Shown here: piece after piece, positions 3,297-42,000 of the stretch
Numbering within the stretch: the first letter of the stretch is position 1
Layout: every line of letters starts with the position of its first letter
Source: Typha latifolia
Taxonomy: Eukaryota; Streptophyta; Magnoliopsida; Poales; Typhaceae
Assembly: GCA_019914945.1 (NCBI GenBank)
Contig: CM034103.1
Location: forward strand, 9,548,001-9,612,000
Direction of reading: 5' to 3'
DNA length: 64,000 bases
Program-made: the position numbers and the translations under genes
The notes under the pieces: generated by a model
What the model saw: the letters and a program-made list of their open reading frames with translations, nothing else
Database searches by the model: none
What the model was told of the DNA's origin: nothing

Positions 3297-3936
3297 GCTA
3301 AATTTTGACTTGTTGCATTGAAAATGATGTGATCCACATTTATCTATGCCACAATTAAACTCTTGTTTACACGTCTAATGAACAAAATCTTGTTCACTCC
3401 CTCTCGAGTGAACCCTACATCCACTTAAAAAGTGGTCAACTTCTCATACCAAACTCTTGGAACTTGTTTTAGCCCGCAGAGAGTCTTTTTCAATTTAAAC
3501 ACATGAGAAAGAAATTTATGATCTTCAAACCCTTAGGTTGTTCTACATATACATCTTCGTTCAAAATACTATTTAAGAAAACACTTTTAATATTCATCTG
3601 AAATAATTTAAATTTTAAATGACAAGCAATAGCAAGAAGTATACGAATCGACTTTAGTCAAGCAACAAGTGCAAATGTCTCGTCAAAGTCTATACCCTTA
3701 ACCTGAGTATAATTCCATGCTACTAATCTGGCTTTATTTCTAACTATATTGTTATATTCATCACTTGTATTCTTGTATATCCATTTTATTCCAATTACAT
3801 TCATATTCTCAAGTCTAGGAACTAAATACCAAACATCATTTCTAGTAAATTGATCTAGTTCCTCATGCAGGTTGAGTTCAAACACGCAAATACACTCCTT
3901 TGTATGTGTAAACGCATTCAAACGACTAATACACAT
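3297..3936 (-). pseudogene. Ty1/copia reverse transcriptase fragment
   Basis: The minus strand encodes the N-terminal half of a copia RT. From 3936 downward it reads motifs such as NDVWYLVPR, IGIKWIYKN, NKARLVAWNYTQVKGIDF and FDETFALVA. After a stop near 3658 it continues in broken frames with relics of the YVEQPKG, KTLCGLKQ and VWYEKL blocks, ending close to DHIIFNATS. In this family the enzyme copies element RNA into DNA. Stops and frameshifts make it a dead fragment. No gag, integrase or paired LTR was found. A stretch at about 3060-3110 with a 'tacgtggaaaaaccc' motif resembles part of the copia LTR at 15.5-16.0 kb and may be LTR debris. Confidence 0.85.
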
Positions 3937-4065
3937 TCTCTATATTTGCGAACGCCTAAACCCACATTCGAACGACCAGAACGCATTCTCTGTATTTGTG
4001 AATGCCTAAATCCACGTTCAAGCGCCGTTTGGGTGCATTCGAACGTGATGCGAATACAGTGACTT
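3868..4065. repeat. Cluster of degenerate TTCGAA-centred motifs
   Basis: Repeated variants of the palindrome GCGTTCGAACGC, alternating with 'ttctctgtatttgcgaac'-like spacers, abut the copia RT fragment. The same spacer and palindrome pattern occurs inside the gypsy LTRs at 6.4-6.65 kb and 10.7-10.92 kb and in the intronic LTR at 40.34-40.47 kb, so this is probably a piece of a related LTR. Confidence 0.7.
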
Positions 4066-10089: not shown

Positions 10090-10103
10090 GTGGCTCTGAT
10101 ACC
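10090..10103 (-). other. Primer-binding site, initiator Met tRNA type
   Basis: On the minus strand this reads TGGTATCAGAGCCA, complementary to the 3' end of plant initiator methionine tRNA. It lies three bases inside the 5' LTR, fixing the element's orientation. Confidence 0.92.
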
Positions 10104-10106
10104 AGC

Positions 10107-11022
10107 TTGATATGATCTCCCCTTTAGGTGAAAGTTCAATCTATCTCGATTTTCAAACCTGGACAGGATCTGATATGGAACTTTAAAAATAGATCTCAAA
10201 ATATGCAGCTGTCAAATCAACGTGAAATTTTTAAATGTTGTAGCCCTCGAAAAGAGCTTTCTAGAAAATATAGTTTCAGACAAATCAGACATTGGGATCT
10301 CGAGATATCGTCCGATCGGTAGACGAACGTCAGGGAGTCCGTCTTTGGATCTGTGGATGGAGGCATGAGATCCTTGATGATGGTGGAGGATGGTGGACCG
10401 ACGATAATGGGGTAGCACCGGTGAGTAAGTGAAGGTGGAAGGGTTATGGATGATGGAAGGGTTAGGGCAAAGTAATAAATAGATTGGACGAATTGGGAGG
10501 AGTGGGCCACCCCTAAGGGACTAAGGTGATTGGCCGGTCGAGGGAGCTAGAAGCGGCGTCGCCGAGAAATGAGAGAACGAGAGAGAAGATGAAGGAGACA
10601 ATGGCAAAACTCAATTCATTCAATAATGATTCTATGGTTGCCATCCACACCTTTAGAGGCTAACTAAACAATTCAAAAATGGCAATTATTAATCCTAAAA
10701 TAATAGATTTTCGCCGATCGCGTTCGAACGCACAGTTTGCGTTTTCTGTATTTGTGAACCTGATGCAGGTGTTCACAAGCGTGTTCGAACGCACTCCATC
10801 CACATTCGAACACGCTCGATCGCGTTCGAACACACATTTTGTGTTCTCTATTTTTGCGAACATAATTCAAGCGTTCAAAAGCGCATTCGAACACACTTTA
10901 TTCACGTTCGAACGCAACATACAAAAAACTTATTTTTCTATAAAATAAATACTAAAATAATAATAAAAGACACCCCTAAAATACATGCTCGAGACGACAT
11001 CAGTGAAGTCTGAATCGTATCA
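10107..11022 (-). repeat. Gypsy 5' LTR
   Basis: Partner of 5825-6739, starting TG and ending CA, followed by TATTT. On the minus strand it would carry the element promoter. It holds a second set of TTCGAA-centred palindromes at about 10715-10920. Confidence 0.9.
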
Positions 11023-13389: not shown

Positions 13390-14240
13390 TTAATCTTGAA
13401 AGAAAACCACATCTCTACTTCTAACAATTCTTTTCCTTTTTGGGTCCCATAATCTATATCCAAACTCCTCATCCACATACCCTATGAAAATACTAGTATA
13501 TGCATTATCATCCAACTTGGTTCTATCCTCTTTTGGTATGTGCACAAATGGTCTACATCTAAAGACCTTCAAGTGTGAATAAGAAACATCTTGTTGAGTC
13601 CAAACTCTCTCTGGAATTTCATCATCCAAGGGAAATAAGGGATACTGATTAATCAAGTGAACCATCTTTATTGCTTCACTCCACAATAACTTGGGTATAT
13701 TGTCCATAGACAACATACTTCAGACTCTCAATAATAGTGTGATTCATCCTCTCCGCTATACTATTATGTTGTAGGGTGCAAGGAACAGTTCTTTCATGTA
13801 AGATGCCATGTGTTTTGTAATATGTTTCAAACTCCTTATATGTGTACTCTCCTCCATTATCACTTCTAAGGTATTTGAGAAGCTTTCCCTTCTCTTGTTC
13901 AACCTTGACATAAAAGAGTTAAAAATGCTAAAAATACTTGATCTTTAGATTTTAATATATAAACCCATACTTTTCTAGAAGCATCATCAATGAAAAAACC
14001 AAGTATAAATTGCCACCAAGAGATTTAGTCTCAAAAAGACCACAAACATCGGAATAAACTAATTGTAAGACCAATTTTCTTCTTAGAATTATTCTAGCAA
14101 AGGAATTTCTATGTTGCTTGCCGAATAAATAATGTCCACAAGATTTCAGCGACGCACCTTTGATGTCTGGCAAAATTGCTTCTTTGTTAGAATTTGCATG
14201 CCCTTCTCACTCATGTGGCTAAGCCTTTGATGCCACAAGA
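13390..14240 (-). pseudogene. Copia integrase, degraded
   Basis: The GAG-pre-integrase segment and start of the core (CGHYLFGKQHRNSF, QLVYSDVCGLFETKSLGG) lie at 13952-14173. The C-terminal part (NIPKLLWSEAIKMVHLINQYP, HLKVFRCRPFVHIPKEDR, IFIGYVDEEFGYRLWDP) lies at 13390-13716. The stretch between carries broken core sequence. This enzyme would join element DNA to the chromosome; stops prevent a full product. Confidence 0.85.
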
Positions 14241-14298
14241 TTGAAGTGGACTGATCCATGAGTGTCATAACGCCGTTGTTAGCTACACTTGTCAATGT

Positions 14299-14712
14299 CT
14301 AATAAAGAGAGCAATATTTCTTACATTTTGCCATAATAAAAGACTCTTTGGTAAGCTTATATACACCTCTACGAAAGGTTGATACATAGCCTTCATCATC
14401 CAAACACCCCGGCAAAATGAGATTAAAATGTAGGTCAGGAATATGATGAACATCTAGGAGGATAACCTTCATCCCAACATTGGTTTCCAAACACATATCT
14501 CCCCTTCTAACTATTTGAGAGCAACCATTATTCTCTATCTTTACCAAGCCAAAGTCACCAGATTTGTAAGATGTAAAGAAATGCTTATGTGGTGTGGCAT
14601 GAAAAGAGGCACCCATGTCTTTGATCCAATCAATGTGAGATGAAGTAGAGGCAACATTGATACATTCTTCATCGCAATAATTTATGACACTCACATCATT
14701 GTTTAGTGTCAC
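14299..14712 (-). pseudogene. Copia protease region
   Basis: The frame contains WIKDMGASFHATPHKHFF, the copia version of the aspartic protease site, where relatives read W-x-x-D-S/T-G-A-S. Here D-M-G replaces D-S-G. The downstream VHHIPDLHFNLIL block is typical for the region before integrase. Confidence 0.82.
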
Positions 14713-14751
14713 AATGGTGGCTTCTGTCTTTTCCTCCGTGCCTTTCCCTTC

Positions 14752-15420
14752 TTAATCTTTCTTTAGGTTCTGACATTCTCTTTTGAAATGACCTTTCATG
14801 TGGCAATAATGACAAATAAGATCTTTTCTTGGCCTAAACTTGCTTCTTAACTTGTAACGATTGTCACGCTCATGAGACCAACCTCTAGTCTCCGTGACTA
14901 GAGCTTGCGAAATAGATTTACCAAAAAAAGTTCTAATCTCTTCATTTAGCAAGCTACTTGTAATTTGACTCATTGTTACAAGCCCTTCATGCCAAATTGC
15001 TTAAAAAGACTACCATAGTCTCCAAAGACTTTGGTAAAGAACTCAATATCAACAATACCTGGAGTTCATCTTCTAGCACCATCTTCATCAAAGCAATTTG
15101 ATTCATGATGCTTTGGACCTCATTTAAATGCTCTGCTTTAGGCTCTCCCTCGTTGTATTTCAAGTTTACAAAATTTCGAATGAGAATTGTCTTGTTTTCT
15201 ACGGTCTTCTTCTCATACAAATCATGTAGCTTTTTCCACAAACATGTGGCGGACGTCTCATTACAATAAGTGAAACAAAACATCTACAGATGTTAGTGAC
15301 TATCTTTCGATATACCTTCTTCCAATCATCATCCCACATGTCTTTACGCTTGTGTTCACTCCTTTCAATTGGTGTGTACAAATATTTACAATAAGGAAGA
15401 CCTTCCATCCTGGGCTTTCA
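14752..15420 (-). pseudogene. Copia gag with zinc knuckle
   Basis: The N-terminal part (YTPIE, DDDWKKVYRKIVTNI) is at 15199-15408. The core (LWKKLHDLYEKKTVENK, LIRNFVNLKYNEGE, LILSSLPKS) is at 14987-15283. The CCHC knuckle CHYCHMKGHFKREC is at about 14765-14815. Frames are broken between the parts. Gag proteins coat the element RNA. Confidence 0.85.
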
Positions 15421-18599: not shown

Positions 18600-19420
18600 G
18601 GCGATCCTCCATCAGCAAATATTTACTCATAAACCTCCTCCATGTTCCAGCACATAATAGCAGAAGGATCACTGACATAAACGACAAGAAATATCACAAT
18701 GATGCAGCTCCTACCAAACCCATATAATAGAACCTCTTGGTTTAGATGCAGATTGGGTGTTTGTAAACCTCCTCCATGTTCCAAAACATAATAACAGAAG
18801 GATCACTGACAGAAATGACAAGATTATATACAATGACGCCACAGAATCCCCCTTCCAAACCCATATAATAGGAGAACCTCTTGGTTTAGATGCACATTGA
18901 TTGTTCATAAACATCCATATTCCAGCATACAAAAGCAGAAGGATCACTGACAGAGATGAATAGAATATATACGATGACGCCACAGAATCTCCCTTCCAAA
19001 CCCTTACATTAGAAGAATCTCTTAGTTTAGATGCATATTGAGTGTTCCAAAACCTTCGCCATATTCCAACACATAACAGAAAAAGGATCACTGACAGAAA
19101 TGACAAGAATATGCCAAATGATGCTGCAGAATCCCCCCTCCAGACCCACATAGTAGAATATCCTCTTGATTTATATGCATATTGAGTGCTAGGGCTCCCC
19201 CATATTCCATTATATGCATATTGAGTGCTAGACCTTTCCCATATTCCATTATATGCATATTGAGTGCTAGACCTCCCCCACATTCCAAAATATAACAGTA
19301 AAAGGATCACTGACAGAAATGGCAAAAATATATACAGTGATGCTGCAGAACCTCCCTTCGAAACCCATATAATAGAAGAACCGCTTGATTTTCTTGCGCA
19401 TTTCACTATGTCTATATTGC
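18600..19420 (-). repeat. In-frame tandem repeat encoding multiplied transmembrane anchors
   Basis: The word 'ggatcactgac' recurs at 18666, 18800, 18941, 19085 and 19304, spacings of 134, 141, 144 and 219 bases. The 219 equals 141 plus two extra copies of a 39-base subunit ('gtgctagacctttcccatat' type, three copies at about 19170-19285). Four units are in frame in the NAC gene. The fifth (18600-18712) lies after the stop codon and is out of frame. Each unit encodes a loop plus one hydrophobic segment of about 20 residues. Confidence 0.93.
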
Positions 19421-22400
19421 TGCCAGCATACCTTTTTCTCGACGACCTTGTAGGTCTAGCTTCTTGAAATATCTTTACAGGAGGTGTGACATCTGCATGA
19501 CATACAAATCAGTGGTTAGCAAAAATGTAAGTTTCATGACTGCATAACCAAACCATATAACAGGATGGTTAATGCTCCTCTTACCACCAAAAGAAAACTC
19601 CTGAAGCTTGTTGCCACCTTCCAGATTGTTCTGGTCCACATGCTTGCCAACCTGCACGCAGACCATTTTACAGTTCATTGGTTCCTGAAAACTGTAAGAA
19701 CCATGCATAAAATAAAATATCCTTATCATTCAAATGTAAACAGAATTTCTGACCTCATCTTTTGCAACTCTTTTTGCACATATATTGTTACCCCTTCTTG
19801 ATAAACCATTTGTTCTCGAAAAAGCTCCCACTTGAAGTTTAGATTGCAACTGCAACCTTCTCACTGGTTTTCCCTTCTCTCCTACCAACTTGTTTGAACT
19901 TGACGGATCTCGCAGTCGTCGAGCTCTGATGGTAATTCCAGTCTCATTACTGGCCCCATTGATAGGAATCCTCTTAATGTTTAATCGCTCCATTATGCCA
20001 GACAGTTCTAGGAAATGTGTACTTGCTTCTTCAACTTCACGATCATCATGAGAACTGTTTGACTCGCTATTGCTGTTATTATGTTGAACTGAACATTGTA
20101 GCCGGATCCTTCTTGTTGCTGAACCCTGCTCTGCAACAATGGTGTTTGCATCTGTCTGTTGCTCAAGACAATCTCCATTACTTGTCATATTCTTCTGGTT
20201 ACTTGATTCTGCAGCAGAAACCACTGAGTACACATCTTGACCAGTGCTATCATAAGGAAGCAGGTTTATGTCTTCATAGAGAGTGCTTAGCCGTGGCTTC
20301 ATTTCAGGATATTCATCGGAAATATCCATCTGTAATTCTTCAGTCCCAAAGACACAATGTGGATACGGCCAATCAGAAACATCTAGACCAACAGCTCCCT
20401 GAAATAAGAAAAGAAAACAAGAGTTTGGTATTGTTGGGCAATGGGCATTGATAGATCAGTATAGCAAATCAATTCTACCTGAACAAATCCTCTTTTGGCA
20501 TCTAAATTACTGCTTGCCCCATTGTCTTTATATGATGATAGATCAAAGATGTTCTGCTGTGGGACTACCTCATCAGCTGAATCTTTCAGAACAATTGATC
20601 CCCTTGAAGAGATCTCGTCTTGGTTGGTGAGCATCGAATTCAACAACACATCTAATGAATCCTGTGAGGAATTACAAACTTTAAGGTATTCCATATGTGA
20701 TCCTTGGTTAATATTGCCAAAGAAAGGATGGTCTGTGTATGGCAGTGGTGGGGAACTGATGTTAGGAAACCTGTCAGGCTCAATTTTTTCATGCTCTGCA
20801 TCAACAAACTGAGCTAAACTGTCCTGTAGAAGACTGCCCTGCATTTTAATAACAGGAAACAACTAGCCATATTTTAGTCCCTAAGACTAACCACTAAAGT
20901 TAAATCCACGGTTTTGAATATCAGTATTGGTATCAATATCAGTCATCGATAAAAAATTACATATATCAACAGTATCAGCCATTCAGCCACTATATCAACC
21001 ATTTCAGTCTCGGACTATTTTTTAATAACTTAAATTCTAAAATCCCAAAAGTTCAAAAAAAATGACAGATAAGAAATTTTAGATTGCTCACATAAGATAG
21101 TAAGAACATAATATGAAGATTGAAAATGCTAAGAGCAATACTGAAAATTCCGAATGGATTCGGTAAATACATGTACCCATTGCTGTCATCACCTCACAAC
21201 AAAGGTTGTAGGAAGGCACTTGTAAATGAGGGTAACAACCACCTTTGCAACAAAGGTGATCGTAGGAGGTGTTAAAAGAAAAAGGTAAAAAGGGTGGTGG
21301 AATGAAAAAAATATATATAGAAACAAAAAGGAAAGGAAAAAAAAATGGGAAAAAACATAAAATGTGCGCCCGAGACATTAGGAGTCTATAATCAATGTCC
21401 GAAGTTGGATTCTAGTTAGATCCAATTTATGATACGATCTACATATAGTCCACATAAAAAAAAAAAAGAATCAAAATTTTGTGTTTACAGTCAATGGGAC
21501 CGATACTAAGGGAAAATTAGTTTCGACTCCAGTTTTGGATCGACAATTGCTAATATTGATATGAATCGGTATCAGTCGATACTTCAAATCATGGTTAAAT
21601 CCCATTACACATTGATAAGTTGCCCTCTTAATATGCATCTAAAAATTTAAATAACACAATAGCTTAGAATATAAAAGAGAAAAGGAATGAAAGATAAGAA
21701 AGGCAAAAAGGAAATATATATTTCCTAGCCCACTCTAGATCAGCTTATCCTTACCTTTACACCTGCTTCACCTGCATGAGAGTTTGAAGCTATTTTGCAA
21801 TAGTTCAAATCTGGTTTGATATGATAAGTTGCTGAACAATCAGGTTTATCATCTAGCCAACTTTTGATACCAACAGACTGAGTTTTAATAGATTGCAGCA
21901 AAGTTAATGGATCATCTTGCAAAGCAGATGCCGGAGATTCCTGGTTTAATGGGGTTGCGATCTCTTCCATACCCATTGCATCATGTTGTATATCATCCGG
22001 AGAGGATCTAGTTGGCGTCGGAGAGATATTCCTGTCTATCTCCAAATCAGAGCTCAGACTTTTCTCTTCTGGCTTCTTGAATAAGCGATAAAGAACATAG
22101 CCACCCTGGGAAACAAGGTGGAAAGTCAAATACTGTAGAAAATGCTCTATCAGCATTAATTAGTAATTATCTATAGTTAGAGAAAAGCTAATTTCAGGTC
22201 AGAAGCACCAGAATTCCAATATATTAGTACTATTATGACATGTATAATGGGAATATGGAAGGTCTGATATCTTTGGATCCAAAGCTTCCACTAACTTCTA
22301 TTGTCACCCTAGAGACCCTTTTTCCTTCAAATTGATGCTTCTTCCAATAGCCTCTTAACTTTAATTTAGAAGACTGGAATGAGAAATAGTAGATAAACCA

Positions 22401-23504
22401 AGGGACCAACAAATGTATATCTGCTGAAAATCTCAATCAACCCTAGAATTTTAATTTTGAAAGTACTTAATTATCTGCTCATCAACAATATCAAAAGTAT
22501 TCTACTGCATCAATCAAGGTGTGCAATACAAAAATCAGAGAACTCCATTCATCTACAATATGCAGAACTGTCTAACCGAAAACCTCCAACCTTATACAAT
22601 ATCGAGAGAAAAGAAAACAACTTTGCTACTAATATGTTTCACATCATAAGTAACTTACTCCATTTACTGAGGGTCTCACAAAATTATGTCAGAAAGAAGA
22701 ATATCTACTAACACTCTAGGATCAGTAAAATTTGACACCTTTAGAACTAGAACCATTTAAGCATGATAACTCCGTGTCAGAAACTATTGGCATACCATAC
22801 CACCAATTCCAATGTACTTGACTAAAACTCCGCATTAATGAAGTAAATTACTCATTTCAAAACCAAAATGGGGAAAAAAAAACCAGCATATATCAGTAGC
22901 TATAAGTCTTAATTCCAAGCATTCAGACAAATCTTAAACCTGATCTCCGGACTCAAACTCTGGCTCGGTAGTGCGGTACTCGTGAATAATCCAATTAGTA
23001 CGCACGCCCTTCGGCGCTCTCCCACGGTGGAAGACAAGCGTCTTCTTCATGCCAATTATAGCAGCATGCTTTGCCGCAGGCTTGGATCGGATGAATCGAT
23101 CTTTCCCAGTAGCCTTCCAGTACCCAGCCTCCGTCGCCCGATTCGAGCGGTGCCCATTCGGGTACTTCCGATCCTTTGGCGCGAAAAAGAACCACTCTGG
23201 ATCGTCCGATCTTATCAAAGCCTTATCTGGGAATCCGCGAAACCCATCAGAATCGAATCAAAATCGCATCTTTAGAAGAAATCTTCCACTTTTACTGCTC
23301 CCAGTCAAAGGAATGAGAGGAAGCCAGAGGAATACCTGGAAGATCCCATGGCTCGCACTTGCAGACATCTACCTCTGGGATGACCTCGACCTCGGACTTG
23401 ATCCGGCCGGTGATCTTGCCCTTGAGGTAGTGGTTGACGAGCTCCTCGTCGGTGGGATGGAACCGGAACCCTAAAGGAAGCGATTCTAGAGGGACGACAG
23501 TCAT
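18711..23504 (-). CDS. Membrane-tethered NAC transcription factor (NTL type), seven exons
   Basis: Exons, 5' to 3': 23504-23336, 23226-22940, 22105-21755, 20838-20479, 20398-19754, 19651-19585, 19492-18711. All introns are GT-AG and frame is kept, giving 886 residues. Residues 1-163 are a NAC DNA-binding domain: [19 protein letters not shown] at 9-27, then [23 protein letters not shown] and [18 protein letters not shown], and [11 protein letters not shown] opening exon 3. Residues 164-650 are a long acidic, polar regulatory region. The C-terminus has four hydrophobic segments at about 679-698, 752-771, 800-819 and 847-866, each with the LSVIL core. Relatives (NTM1-like/NTL9 type) normally have one such anchor, hold the factor in a membrane and release the N-terminal part by proteolysis. 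Membrane insertion of four segments is inference. The start matches the family's '[10 protein letters not shown]' beginning. Confidence 0.93.
20908..21593. mobile_element. Mutator-like non-coding element in NAC intron 3
   Basis: Flanked by the 9-bp direct repeat GTTAAATCC (20899-20907 and 21594-21602). The ends are inverted: 'acggttttgaatatcag' at left and, reverse-complemented, 'catgatttgaagtatcga' at right. Both ends carry 'ggtatc' repeat words. A 9-bp duplication is typical of Mutator-superfamily elements. It has no transposase frame and makes up most of the 916-bp intron. Confidence 0.75.
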
Positions 23505-27710: not shown

Positions 27711-30540
27711 CTATAGTACCATTGGTTGATCAAGGTGATTGTGAGACATGGCAACATGGGATACCCCACGAGGTTGAACCACCCAACTGGCAAAATTGTT
27801 AGCTTGGCCCTGCATGATAGGCATGGAAACGCCAACTGAACCCCTGACAGTGCACCATGCTATGTTAGGGTTACTTGATGCTTGAGAAACCATTGTATGG
27901 TCAAATAAACCTTGGGTGGGCATATAAGGCTCCTATGTACAACAGGAATAAAACATTCAGAACTTAACTACCTTAGAATCTTTCTGAGATGATTCTTTAA
28001 GTTCAAAACATACAAACCTGAGTAGGCATGACTGTGTCAGGAGGAAAAGAGCATCCTGTAGGTTGCATCGGAATAGGGTTACAGTATGAAGTTGCACCAT
28101 TCCGGTGATAAGATGGAATATGTGATGAGTCGTTGATCATTACTTGATCAGATGCCTCATTTTGCCCTGTTTTAGATGCATAGTGTAAAGCAAGGAAGAT
28201 ATGACTTTGTATACAGTATTACCTATAATAATATTACATACTTGTATTTTCTATATTCTGTGGAGGTTCATGGCGAATTATGGTGTCGATTGAACTGGAA
28301 AAAGTTTGAGATTTCTTTCTTTTCTTCTCAGTTCCACCCTTTGGTTTCCGGCCCCGCTTTTTCTTGCATCCTTCTAATGCATTCAGATGCATGTCATCTA
28401 CCATGGTGATATCTTCATCATCTGTCTGTCTGTTCAATGGAGCAAGCCGCAAGACATGTTCCACTTCTACCATCAATTTATCAAGTTCATTTTCATATAT
28501 TTGCAGAGCATCCTCAGAAAATGCACTTTTTACTGCAATAGATATTGCCTTACGCCACACCCGACTATACTGCAATGTCAAAGGTTCTTCACCATCAGTG
28601 TCAGCCATTAGTCGGATTTTATCAGATATCACTTCAACATTTGCATATTTTGTCCACCTTTTCAATATATACTGAGATGGAAGGTCAAGGATGTTATTGT
28701 TGTTGAGAACTTTTAATGCATGCATGCACAAGATGCCCATGGTTTCAAACTTTCTGCAGCTGCAAGTAACTGACAAATTTGATTGATTAAATTCAACAAA
28801 GGCGTAACAACGCTTTTCAGGGAGGGAAACCTTAAACGTGTAAATAGTCCCATTCATCCCAACTGGTTCACAAAGACAGGAAAGCTGACTCTTGAACTCA
28901 TCCTCAAATTCATTATACATGAGCCGTGTATATGACTGTGCTGCTTCATTTAACATAGGCATATCAACCAGCAACACTGGCTTAGTTTGTCTTGATTTAT
29001 AATCTTCATATAGTTCCTTCTCACGAAACCTCATTAATGTCTTATTATACTGTTCAATAAATTTGGAAAGGGGCAACCTCCTGTTGAAATGTTTTTTAAA
29101 GAGATTCTTCATGCTCTCGCTCCACCGTAATGAAGTCATGGAAGCAGAAAATGAGTTCTTCTGATATATCAACGCCCACTTATCTCGAACTACATATAAA
29201 TCTTGTAGCCATGAATTACTGGCAAGATCATACTTGTTAACTAAATCAACCCATGCACTATGAAAATCCTCTTCAGAGGCACATTCATATATGATACTTT
29301 TAAATTCCTTCTGAAAGTCTGGCTCGCTATTGTACATATGAGAAATATGTACAGAAGCATTTTGGGTTAAATGCCATAAACAAAGATGGTGACTTGTCTC
29401 AGGTAGTGTCATGCTAATTGCTCTTGATAATGCAGGATAATGATCGGTAAATATTGTCCTTGGTTGGCGTTCGGACATTGCAATCATAAAGGTTTTAAAT
29501 AACCACACAAATGATTCTGTTGTTTCATCCAACAACAAAGCAGTACCAAATATAACAAATTGCTTATGATGATTGATCCCAAGGAATGGTGCAAAAGGTA
29601 GCTCACTCTTGTTTGACCGGTAAGTCGTATCAAATAAGACTACATCCCCGAAGTAAGAGTAATCAATTATTGATCTTGCATCTGCCCAAAAGAAATTTGT
29701 GACCTGTTCTCTATCATCAAGTTGTATGGCATAGAAGAAGGAGGGATCTTCTAACTGCTTAGCTTTCAAAAATTCTAAAAGAACTTGGGCATCTCCCTTC
29801 TCAAGTTCTCTCATTCTTGTGGTGTGCAAATAGCTGCTTTGATCTTTTAAAAGAAATCCAACAGTTTCAGCTTCACGAGCCTCTTCTAAAGGAAACTCAA
29901 GAGTCTCAGCAGATTTTTCTGCAACAATACCTATGTCATCACGCTGAGCTAACAATAGCCGTCTATGAGACCTTAATAAGTGTGCTTTATGTGGGCGCAC
30001 AAGAGGATGGTTGTGCTCGTAGATGATTTTGCTCACTGCCCAAATACCATCACGACTTACTTTGTACTCGATGCGAGCCATACAATTTGTCCTGACAGCT
30101 TCGCGTGGTTTCTTCGTCATATGTGTGCAATGCTTCTGACGAGAACCTTCATTGCTACATAAGAAGACCCTATTCCGTACAGTCCCATCCTTTCTTCGAC
30201 CAAGATGCCCCTTACGAACACTAAAACCTTTTCTATGAGCATATTTATTATAAAACATATATGCTTTATCTTCTGAGTGAAATACCATACCAACTTCTGG
30301 CTCCAACTGAAAGTTTCCAACTGCCTTTTGCTTATCCAAAATGTTTGGCTCTTTCAAAGTTGATATTTTAGAAGCCTCGCCATCTTTTAAAGCTTGGGAC
30401 ACCTCTGCTGCATCATTTTCTCTTGAATTAAGCCCCACTGGCATTCTATGTACCCCTTCATCATCTTTCTCTCTTTCACTCAAAGAGTCTTCAGCAGTTT
30501 CTATGGATTCATTATCTGAAGAGGAACCAGATAATTCCAT
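27711..30540 (-). CDS. FAR1-related sequence (FRS) transcription factor, transposase-derived
   Basis: Exons 30540-28242, 28166-28018 and 27932-27711 join in frame to 889 residues. The start at 30540 is chosen because a splice acceptor (polypyrimidine then ATAAG) lies one base upstream of the ATG. The upstream ATG at 30585 would translate that intron. Residues about 85-182 form the FAR1 zinc-type DNA-binding domain (GMVFHSEDKAYMFYNKYA to YEHNHPLV). Residues about 290-400 are the MULE-transposase-like domain (DTTYRSN, FTDHYPAL, CLWHL). A SWIM zinc finger has C593, C595, C605 and H607. A basic stretch (KKKRGRKPK, EKKRKK, about 726-743) is a likely nuclear signal. Family members (FHY3/FAR1 relatives) are nuclear regulators domesticated from Mutator-like transposases. 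The intact exon, single copy and spliced tail argue against an active transposon. Which family member it is remains open. Confidence 0.92.
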
Positions 30541-30772
30541 TCTTATAAAAGAAAAAAAGATGAAAATAGTTAGTGAAAGCCTCATGTATAAATAAAATTA
30601 TAATGGAATAAAACATTCTTCACAATTAACTATTTGAAAAATCTCACTTTCTCATAGTCGGGATATTACACTAGCACTCAACTCTCAGACTATAGGTAGT
30701 GCAAATGATTAAGGATCTGATCTTAGCATACGAACAACAGCAACGAAGTTAGGGAAAATTAGGGAAAAAATT

Positions 30773-39057: not shown

Positions 39058-42000
39058 GGTTTGAGGTCGCGTGCGGATGGCCCGTCGCCTCACCTGTCCA
39101 CCTCATTGCCCGGTCCGACTGGGCTCGGAGAGTGAGTCTCGGGAGAGGCGGCGCCGTCCGATGCGGCTCCGGCCCGCTTCTTCGGACCTGCAAGAACTGC
39201 AAGACGCAGTTCGATCCCGCCGTCAACCACCCCACCGCCTGCCGCTTCCACACCGCCCATTTTGGTGGTCTGTCTCTTCTCATCTTTCTCGTCCCTTTCC
39301 CCTTTCTTGTCTTAGTTTCTTATTTTGTTGCTTTTTTCGATCAATTGATTGGTCTTCTTGCTAAACTATGAGATCGTGCTTGGGCAAAATCAATTTCACG
39401 AGAAGATGAGTTGTGGCATATTATATATGTGATAATAGATTGGAGAATAAGAAGGTATCGTCGATTAGAGGTTCCTTGTATTAGTTAACTTCTAGGAAAT
39501 CCAATTTTGAAATTTTTTTTAGATGGGGGGAGTAGGAGAAGTTTGAGAGATACGAAATATTTACTTTGTATAGACCATGGTCTTCCCTCCTGCACTTCTG
39601 AATTAATTCCAGGAGTTGTAATTCTGAAATCTAAGAAGCCAAAATGCATAGAGTGATGCAACTTCACTGCTGGTTAGTGTTAGACTGTTAAGAGTCTCAA
39701 AATATAGGTTAGGAACAGTTAAAGACATGATTTTCATTGCATGATTTATTCAGAAAATAAAGTATTTTCACGTCATGTCATGGATCCAAAACGTTCCACT
39801 GTTATGATATTTTGACCAATTGTATTCTTATTTTTATACAATTGGTCAAGATGGTTGTGTGTAGGATTGATCCACTTGCAATACTACTTGGGATAGATTG
39901 AGCACAAATGTTGTGGGGCTTGAGCTCATGCTAATCCACATGAGATTGGCTCGACTTGGTTTTATTATTTTGTTCTAGACTGAATACATGTTGGTGATAT
40001 TGCCGACAATTGTCAAAATGGTTTGTCCTTTGGTCGATTATCATTGAATAAGCTATTCTATTGATATTCAATGTTTTCTAATGTTAGCTAATGTGTCTCA
40101 ATCTATATGAACATGATGTACATTGCATGACTGAATGCTTGTGCACAATTATTGATATGTGTGTGTGTGTGCGCACGCGCATGCTAATCCTAGTATTGGT
40201 ATTAGAATGAATAAATTGTCAGTCAACATTGAAGTCATGCTATCGTTGTTGTTTTGGTCAATGATTGGCATGTGATACACTTAGTTAGGATTTTTTCTTA
40301 TTGTATTAGGTGTTTATTTTCATTAAAATAAAATTTTTGTAGGTCGCGTTCGAACACAGGTGGAGTCGCGTTCGAACGCCCTTGTGAACGCCCGCGTTCG
40401 AATGCCTATGTCGCGTTCGCAAATCCAGAGAAAGGGCTTTTTGAGTGCGTTCGAACGCGATCGACAGAAATCCTCTAGAATTATGGTTTTATATTGTTTT
40501 ACGACTTGTTGACTAGCCTCTATAGATATGTGAATGGCAACTAACTTCATTATGCTATTGGATTATTGCCTCCTATCTTCTCTCTAGACGTCTCCCTCCT
40601 CCCTCTTCACCATCCTTCCACATCTGCCGTTAGCAAGGTTTCTCCTCGCTTCTAATCTCCCTCGACTGTCGAGTCACCCCTCTTCTTTGGGATCTCGACC
40701 ACTTCGTTCCTCTCGTCTACTTCCCTTAATCACTTCCACAATCCACCATCATCTCCATACCCATCCATAACTCTAACATCCACTCCACCCGTCACCACCA
40801 CCATCATCCACGTTATTCCGTATTCTCTTCCCTGTTACAATTCGAATTTGCGAAGAGCATAAATACGAAAGTTATAGATTAGGAAGTTACGGATCCAACC
40901 CAATTGGTTTCGTAATTTTCTGACTATCGGAGAATATCTGATGAATATTTTTCCATGGTTGTGCGGACTGCTTCCTGCAATAAATTCAGATCTTAAGGAA
41001 TTGTTCTGTAGCCGATCTTTTGGTTCCAGATCCTATCAATTTGGTATCAGAGCCTAACAATTGATATCAGAGCCTTAACAATTTGGTATCAGAGCTTTAA
41101 CAATTTGGCATCAGAGTTTTAACAATTTGGTATCAGAGCCTTATCAAATTGGTATTAGAGCTTATTAATTGGTATCAGAGCTTATCAGCATGGTCGTGTA
41201 GTGAAGTTATATAGGAGCAAAGGGAAGTTTGTGATAGTACTAAGTTTGCCAAATGGTTCGAGTAGAAAGCAGTTGAAAAAGGCATCACAAAGGTTGTGGA
41301 GGATTGTTCAAATTTCAAATCATGGATTCTCGTGTCATTCAGCACAAGTTGATATGTATCATGCCGGCAAATAATCAGTATTGATATAGGGGATTATATC
41401 AATATTCCCTCATGTCCACATGTGCTAAGCCATGTCTACCCCATAATTGGGTCTCTTTCATCTCTCTCGATACCTCTTTGCTTTTAGTATTTGATCTATA
41501 TAAATTACACTTAAAATTCTAGAAATCAAAATGGAAATACTTGTTTCCCCAAGTTATGCCTCCCAATTTGAAGGAGTACGAAAATAATTGGGTAAAAATA
41601 TCAAATTGGAATCTTCTTACTATATATTTGAGTAGATCTACCACATTTTTGAGAGAGAGAGAGAGAGACTGTATGAGTTGCACCAATATCTAGTGCTAAA
41701 AGACTTCTGTTTGGCATCTAAAATCTATTTTAAGGCCATAAAAGATTGTTATAGATATAGTGAGGATACCCGGTGATACATGTTGTGCCAAGCTAAGGCA
41801 GACATTCCCTTGTGCCTCTCAAGGCAATCCTTTTTCTAAAAAACAAGTTGATGGCATGGTGGTTGAATTGCTGGATGCGAATATGTAGTAGCATCTAAGT
41901 TAGCAAAGGTGAAGTAATTTTAAAGCTAAGACATAAAAAATATGAGTTGAATTGGAGAAAGCTTGAAAGTATTTAATAAAATTGAGAGCAGCCAATCAAT

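Follow-up and report, generated by a model that had tools for sequence, protein, structure and literature searches.

The last exon of an NTL-type NAC gene of Typha latifolia holds five tandem copies of a membrane-anchor unit, four of them in frame with the protein and one decayed beyond the stop codon. In the reading that we favor and consider reasonably probable, the product would be a four-span protein whose NAC half and C-terminus would both lie in the cytosol, it would enter the membrane by way of SRP and Sec61, and its first span would act as the switch for release.

A NAC gene with four hydrophobic segments

The gene lies on the minus strand at 18711-23504 of the window, by which we mean the whole 64,000-nt stretch that was analyzed. 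Its seven coding exons (23336-23504, 22940-23226, 21755-22105, 20479-20838, 19754-20398, 19585-19651 and 18711-19492), with the stop codon at 18711-18713, form a spliced model that is open from end to end, encodes exactly 886 residues and is identical across all of them to the NCBI protein P0001 of T. latifolia. The NAC (NAM) domain, encoded by exons 1-2 (22940-23504, minus strand), was matched by PF02365 at the N-terminus, over residues 10-141, with 154.8 bits against a cut-off of 27 (E = 1.9e-45), which places the protein in the NAC family. Pfam matched nothing in the 886-aa protein beyond this domain.

The coding part of the last exon (18711-19492, minus strand) bears the anchor array. A paralog on contig 14 (C14) has the same seven-exon layout, and its last exon begins at the matching site; the last exon of the window gene is thus supported both by exon borders common to the two genes and by the identical NCBI protein. 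The sequence and position of the repeated unit agree with the C-terminal anchors of relatives and of the paralog, consistent with a homologous anchor and with membership in the NTL group. The nearest relatives among the matches listed bear the names NTM1-like 9 or NAC014.

Hydropathy finds four segments in the protein encoded by this exon, all on the minus strand. Segment 1 (aa 678-698, 19278-19340) lies nearest the NAC part and contains a proline. Segment 2 (aa 751-771, 19059-19121) is followed by RR, segment 3 (aa 799-819, 18915-18977) is the weakest of the four and has no RR after it, and segment 4 (aa 846-866, 18774-18836) is followed by RR inside a 20-residue tail. The four sequences are of the same make (LYIFLPFLSVILLLLYFGMW, FGIFLSFLSVILFLLCVGIW, SYIFYSSLSVILLLLYAGIW and LYIILSFLSVILLLLCFGTW), no charged residue falls within any of the spans, and the best 19-residue hydropathy means for units 1-4 are 2.35, 2.75, 1.94 and 2.73. 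When we shuffled the residues of the last 261 aa 5000 times and counted a segment at a hydropathy of at least 1.9, 3717 shuffles contained no segment, 1195 contained one, 88 contained two and none contained more than two, compared to four in the real sequence. An earlier sequence-only reading of this DNA had proposed a NAC transcription factor with four successive hydrophobic segments sharing an LSVIL core, produced by fourfold multiplication of the anchor. The PF02365 match, the hydropathy profile with its shuffles and the in-frame repeat units uphold each part of that proposal.

A tail anchor, as defined in passages of PMC9545932, is a lone transmembrane segment situated within roughly the final 40 residues. 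The window protein falls outside this definition, with four segments of which the first ends 189 residues ahead of the C-terminus.

Other features of the window are recorded here in their own right. Downstream of the NAC gene, at 13952-15417 on the minus strand, are broken ORFs that by eye resemble a Copia-type retrotransposon, with a zinc-knuckle-like CHYCHMKGHFKREC. A tandem repeat at 41019-41181 comprises 7.6 copies of a 22-nt unit, four copies having the exact sequence TTGGTATCAGAGC, which resembles the primer-binding site found in Copia retrotransposons of plants; further exact matches to this pattern occur on the minus strand at 10093 and 63662. An ORF of 787 aa at 28234-30597 (minus strand) looks by eye like a transposase-derived factor of the FAR1/FHY3 family. 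Tandem repeats of 102 nt (10715-10913) and 50 nt (3915-4021) have TTCTCTATATTTGCGAAC in common.

The repeat array and its single-anchor relatives

At the DNA level, the direct repeat is a five-member family whose start-to-start spacings, in the 5′ to 3′ direction of the gene, are 219, 144, 141 and 134 nt; Tandem Repeats Finder also detects the array (score 586). The three spacings among coding units 1-4 are all divisible by three, whereas the 134 nt to the fifth unit is not. The longest spacing equals 141 + 78 nt, the 78 nt being two additional copies of a 39-nt repeat in the first loop, where a repeat search finds three copies (19171-19287, minus strand) that lengthen the loop. The sequence-only reading had seen four repeats at spacings of 134-144 nt. 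This has to be corrected, as the coding units are spaced more widely at the first step and the 134-nt interval leads from unit 4 to a unit that had been overlooked.

This fifth unit (18619-18708, minus strand), identified by the DNA repeat and by alignment, lies beyond the stop codon and is frameshifted. The alignment of the five units gives it gaps of 3, 7, 3 and 1 nt; its anchor core is in a different frame, and in the frame matching units 1-4 a stop stands immediately ahead of the core. That unit 5 is broken past the stop codon suggests that five units were made and four are left in the protein.

Units 1-4 diverge from one another by 18-25% over aligned codons, and divergence from the reference copy, gaps excluded, is 19-33%. 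Protein and DNA searches of the plant's own genome found the unit elsewhere only as weak hits on C6, C4 and C14, the C14 match being the single anchor of the paralog. We rejected a mobile-element origin of the unit because, apart from these weak matches, it is restricted to this locus in its own genome.

To place the array among related genes, we examined the best 120 of 948 matches from a whole-protein search (the 948 including the query itself), one of the 120 being the query, and counted segments by hydropathy at a threshold of 1.6 over roughly the last 280 residues. Of the 119 relatives listed, a single C-terminal segment is present in 92 and absent from 27, and none has a second segment or a spaced array. 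The distance from segment to C-terminus is 23 residues or fewer in 91 of the 92 single-segment relatives listed and 74 in the exception, compared to 189 for the first segment of the window protein. At a threshold of 1.2, two of the 119 listed show two segments: in Ananas P0022 the two nearly abut, and in Musa P0065 a weak extra segment with no likeness to the anchor precedes the tail by some 70 residues. Among the matches listed, palm anchors share the LSVIL core of the window units, and pineapple and grasses have cores close to it. With the last exon alone as query, no relative was found at E 0.01 among 7450 candidates, and residues 560-886 matched only the window protein itself.

The C14 paralog encodes 702 aa with one anchor and is identical to the window protein at 351 of 655 aligned residues. 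Its ortholog in T. angustifolia, P0009, is identical to it at 672 of 702 residues and also has one anchor. Both belong to the same family as the window gene and keep its exon order, and both carry the anchor YIIWLVPSVILLLLFVGI, but unlike the window gene they have this one anchor only, with the best hydropathy window ending 6 residues before the stop. The statement of the sequence-only reading that membrane-tethered NAC factors normally have a single C-terminal segment agrees with these counts, allowing for the 27 listed relatives that have none. The comparison of unit number in related species that it had called for shows one anchor in the paralog and in P0009, and a spaced array in none of the 119 listed. 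The single anchor in relatives, in the paralog and in P0009 makes it most likely the older state.

In a tree of 37 proteins chosen from the 120 listed, with the window protein represented by its first 640 residues, the window gene was placed in a set of ten Poales rows (97% SH-aLRT) and did not pair with the other Typha gene. Comparison of 142 window ORFs of at least 70 aa with 47 kb of C14 gave matches only over the NAC gene, so an origin of the gene pair by whole-genome duplication is not supported. The window gene and the paralog are separated by a dS of 0.80 across residues 1-625 and of 0.91 in the NAC part. Among units 1-4, dS is 0.15 to 0.48, each unit being short on synonymous sites, and the units thus seem younger than the gene pair, though not recent. 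As only 4% of residues differ in the C14 gene between T. latifolia and T. angustifolia, the array would be expected in the latter too.

These observations point to an ordinary tail anchor multiplied within the last exon as the most likely origin of the array. The duplicated segment, about 141 nt long and ending directly ahead of the stop codon of a single-anchor ancestor, would have been copied in frame several times; from the layout, a unit that ends before the old stop would lengthen the protein in frame at each copying. The last unit would have decayed later, leaving the stop after unit 4.

Two relatives were observed to have altered tails. In the C-terminal 50 residues of Musa acuminata var. 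zebrina P0065, the 13-residue ILLVVLLPLCLGI occurs twice in tandem, and in those of Ananas comosus P0022 the single tail anchor is enlarged. Anchor duplication may be recurring in this NAC family.

Predicted topology and alternative explanations

Stretches rich in K and R are expected on the cytosolic side of a membrane by the positive-inside rule. In the window protein, the density of K+R is 0.211 on the N side (38 residues), 0.096 in loop 1, 0.222 in loop 2, 0.115 in loop 3 and 0.200 in the tail. Segments 2 and 4 each have a double arginine behind them, segment 1 has one arginine there, and segment 3 lacks the pair. This alternation is the order expected for four spans with the N side in and the C-terminus in; ranked simply, five stretches would fall into it with a chance of 1 in 10, and the length of the N-side stretch was of our choosing. 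Single-sequence AlphaFold2 modeling of the exon protein placed helices at 48-73, 120-157, 168-200 and 214-248, over the four segments, at low confidence; with a mean pLDDT of 54, the model could not support a search by fold. The NAC domain is predicted to be cytosolic for all Arabidopsis NTLs but NTL1, according to passages of PMC9237531. A cytosolic NAC domain followed by four spans would put the C-terminus in the cytosol as well.

A tail anchor exits the ribosome only once translation ends and so takes a post-translational route such as GET. By established principles, a first span 189 residues from the end should emerge during translation and meet SRP. Multiplication of the anchor would then have shifted insertion from the post-translational GET route for tail anchors to a co-translational SRP/Sec61 route, with the four spans alternating in the membrane. 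Two points count against this: the units were copied in one orientation, so two of the four spans would have to insert against the ancestral preference, and unit 3 is only marginally hydrophobic (-0.25 on an insertion scale).

Release of NTLs from the dormant membrane-held form is thought to occur by intramembrane proteolysis, and helix breakers inside a span are held to favor such cuts (passages of PMC9545932 and PMC9237531). Among the four spans, only span 1 contains a proline. A single cut, in span 1 or ahead of it, would suffice to release the NAC part irrespective of the spans behind, so that spans 2-4 would more likely provide a heavier polytopic hold than further switches. The multiplied anchor is likely to have changed both the insertion and the release of this NAC factor. 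We put forward more tentatively, as a possibility somewhat short of an even chance, the full history in which duplication within the exon made a tail-anchored factor four-span, moved it from GET to SRP and brought its C-terminus back into the cytosol, the loop charges having since been adjusted.

How far the units are constrained bears on whether all four spans matter. Pooled over units 1-4, dN/dS is 0.70 (single pairs 0.38 to 1.49), compared to 0.61 when the decayed unit is set against the others. The ratio fails to separate the coding units from the broken one and gives no sign of strong selection; by this measure the units appear to be under weak constraint only. Measured against the paralog, dN/dS is 0.09 for the NAC domain, which is well conserved, and 0.55 for the linker, which is loose. 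Such values, together with the loss of one unit in five, would suit an array that arose as a by-product of slippage in a weakly constrained tail, with only the first span anchoring the protein and the others tolerated and discarded on cleavage. We nevertheless consider this unlikely, since the four units are still open and hydrophobic, the gaps among them are multiples of three, and the charge pattern agrees with insertion. In 20,000 runs of random substitutions on the consensus of the units, all four stayed open in 1.6% and stayed open with a hydropathy of at least 1.9 in 0.6%.

A further alternative, that acceptor-like sites within the units give rise to spliced forms with a varying number of spans or none, draws on TCTGTCAG, present in all four coding units with pyrimidines at 8 of the 11 preceding positions (19310, 19091, 18947 and 18806), and on a donor-like AAG/GTATGC at 19431. 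By phase reading, the exon 6 donor could be spliced in frame to each of the four acceptors, and use of the 19431 donor with the first acceptor would yield a short soluble end. Removal of an anchor by splicing is established for bZIP60 (passages of PMC9237531) and is suggested for some Arabidopsis and cotton NACs (passages of PMC5694209). Yet the four sites resemble one another through common descent and fall on conserved Ser-Val codons, the Arabidopsis NTLs are described in passages of PMC9237531 as without anchor-less transcripts, ANAC050 excepted, and the database holds one protein of this gene, though the P0001 cluster has two member sequences; we regard such a cassette as quite improbable. 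That the true gene has one anchor, with the array an artefact of assembly or annotation, might be suspected from a long tandem repeat inside one exon and an NCBI model that may derive from the same assembly. Units whose DNA agrees with the reference copy at 67-81% are too divergent for an expansion error, which the sequence-only reading had itself raised, and the array DNA matches a single place in the 214-Mb assembly of 62 contigs (in a search that skips very common words). We rejected an artefact on these two grounds and judge it very improbable. Four similar spans with similar Trp/Gly flanks could also be imagined as a helical bundle with a second function, resembling a channel or receptor domain or serving to bind partners, but Pfam is silent outside the NAC domain and the spans are free of charged residues, which leaves this idea with hardly any probability.

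Comparison to known multi-span factors

The NTL (NTM1-like) NACs, such as the monocot NTM1-like 9 and NAC014-like proteins, likewise combine a NAC domain with a C-terminal anchor having the core LSVIL..L..GIW. They have one anchor, whereas the window gene has four spaced spans and a decayed fifth unit, the first span ending far from the C-terminus. The enlarged hydrophobic tails of Musa P0065, through its exact 13-residue repeat, and Ananas P0022 are likewise extensions of the anchor, but each is one unbroken stretch, with copies lacking loops between them, unlike the window array.

NAC proteins with two predicted transmembrane helices are reported for chickpea (Ca_14390), groundnut (six) and tea (CsNAC55) in passages of PMC8059324 and PMC9731689. 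These resemble the window protein in having more than one predicted span; they have two, and a repeated unit goes unmentioned in those passages. Across families, transcription factors have one to 13 spans, with a maximum of three in Arabidopsis (passages of PMC5694209). Within the titles, abstract beginnings and passages of the open-access literature, we found no NAC with four spans or a repeated anchor; the tables of PMC5694209 may hold NACs with more than two.

The array has a bearing beyond the NAC family. How single helices gave rise to multi-span membrane proteins is usually reconstructed from ancient folds. In this one exon the steps are still legible, from single-anchor relatives to four open copies and one decayed copy. 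The gene offers a system for asking whether a membrane-bound transcription factor held by several spans can be released, and whether the route of insertion is set by how far the first span lies from the stop codon. If the four-span reading is true, the gene would show in nature how a polytopic membrane protein can arise when one helix carried by a transcription factor is multiplied.
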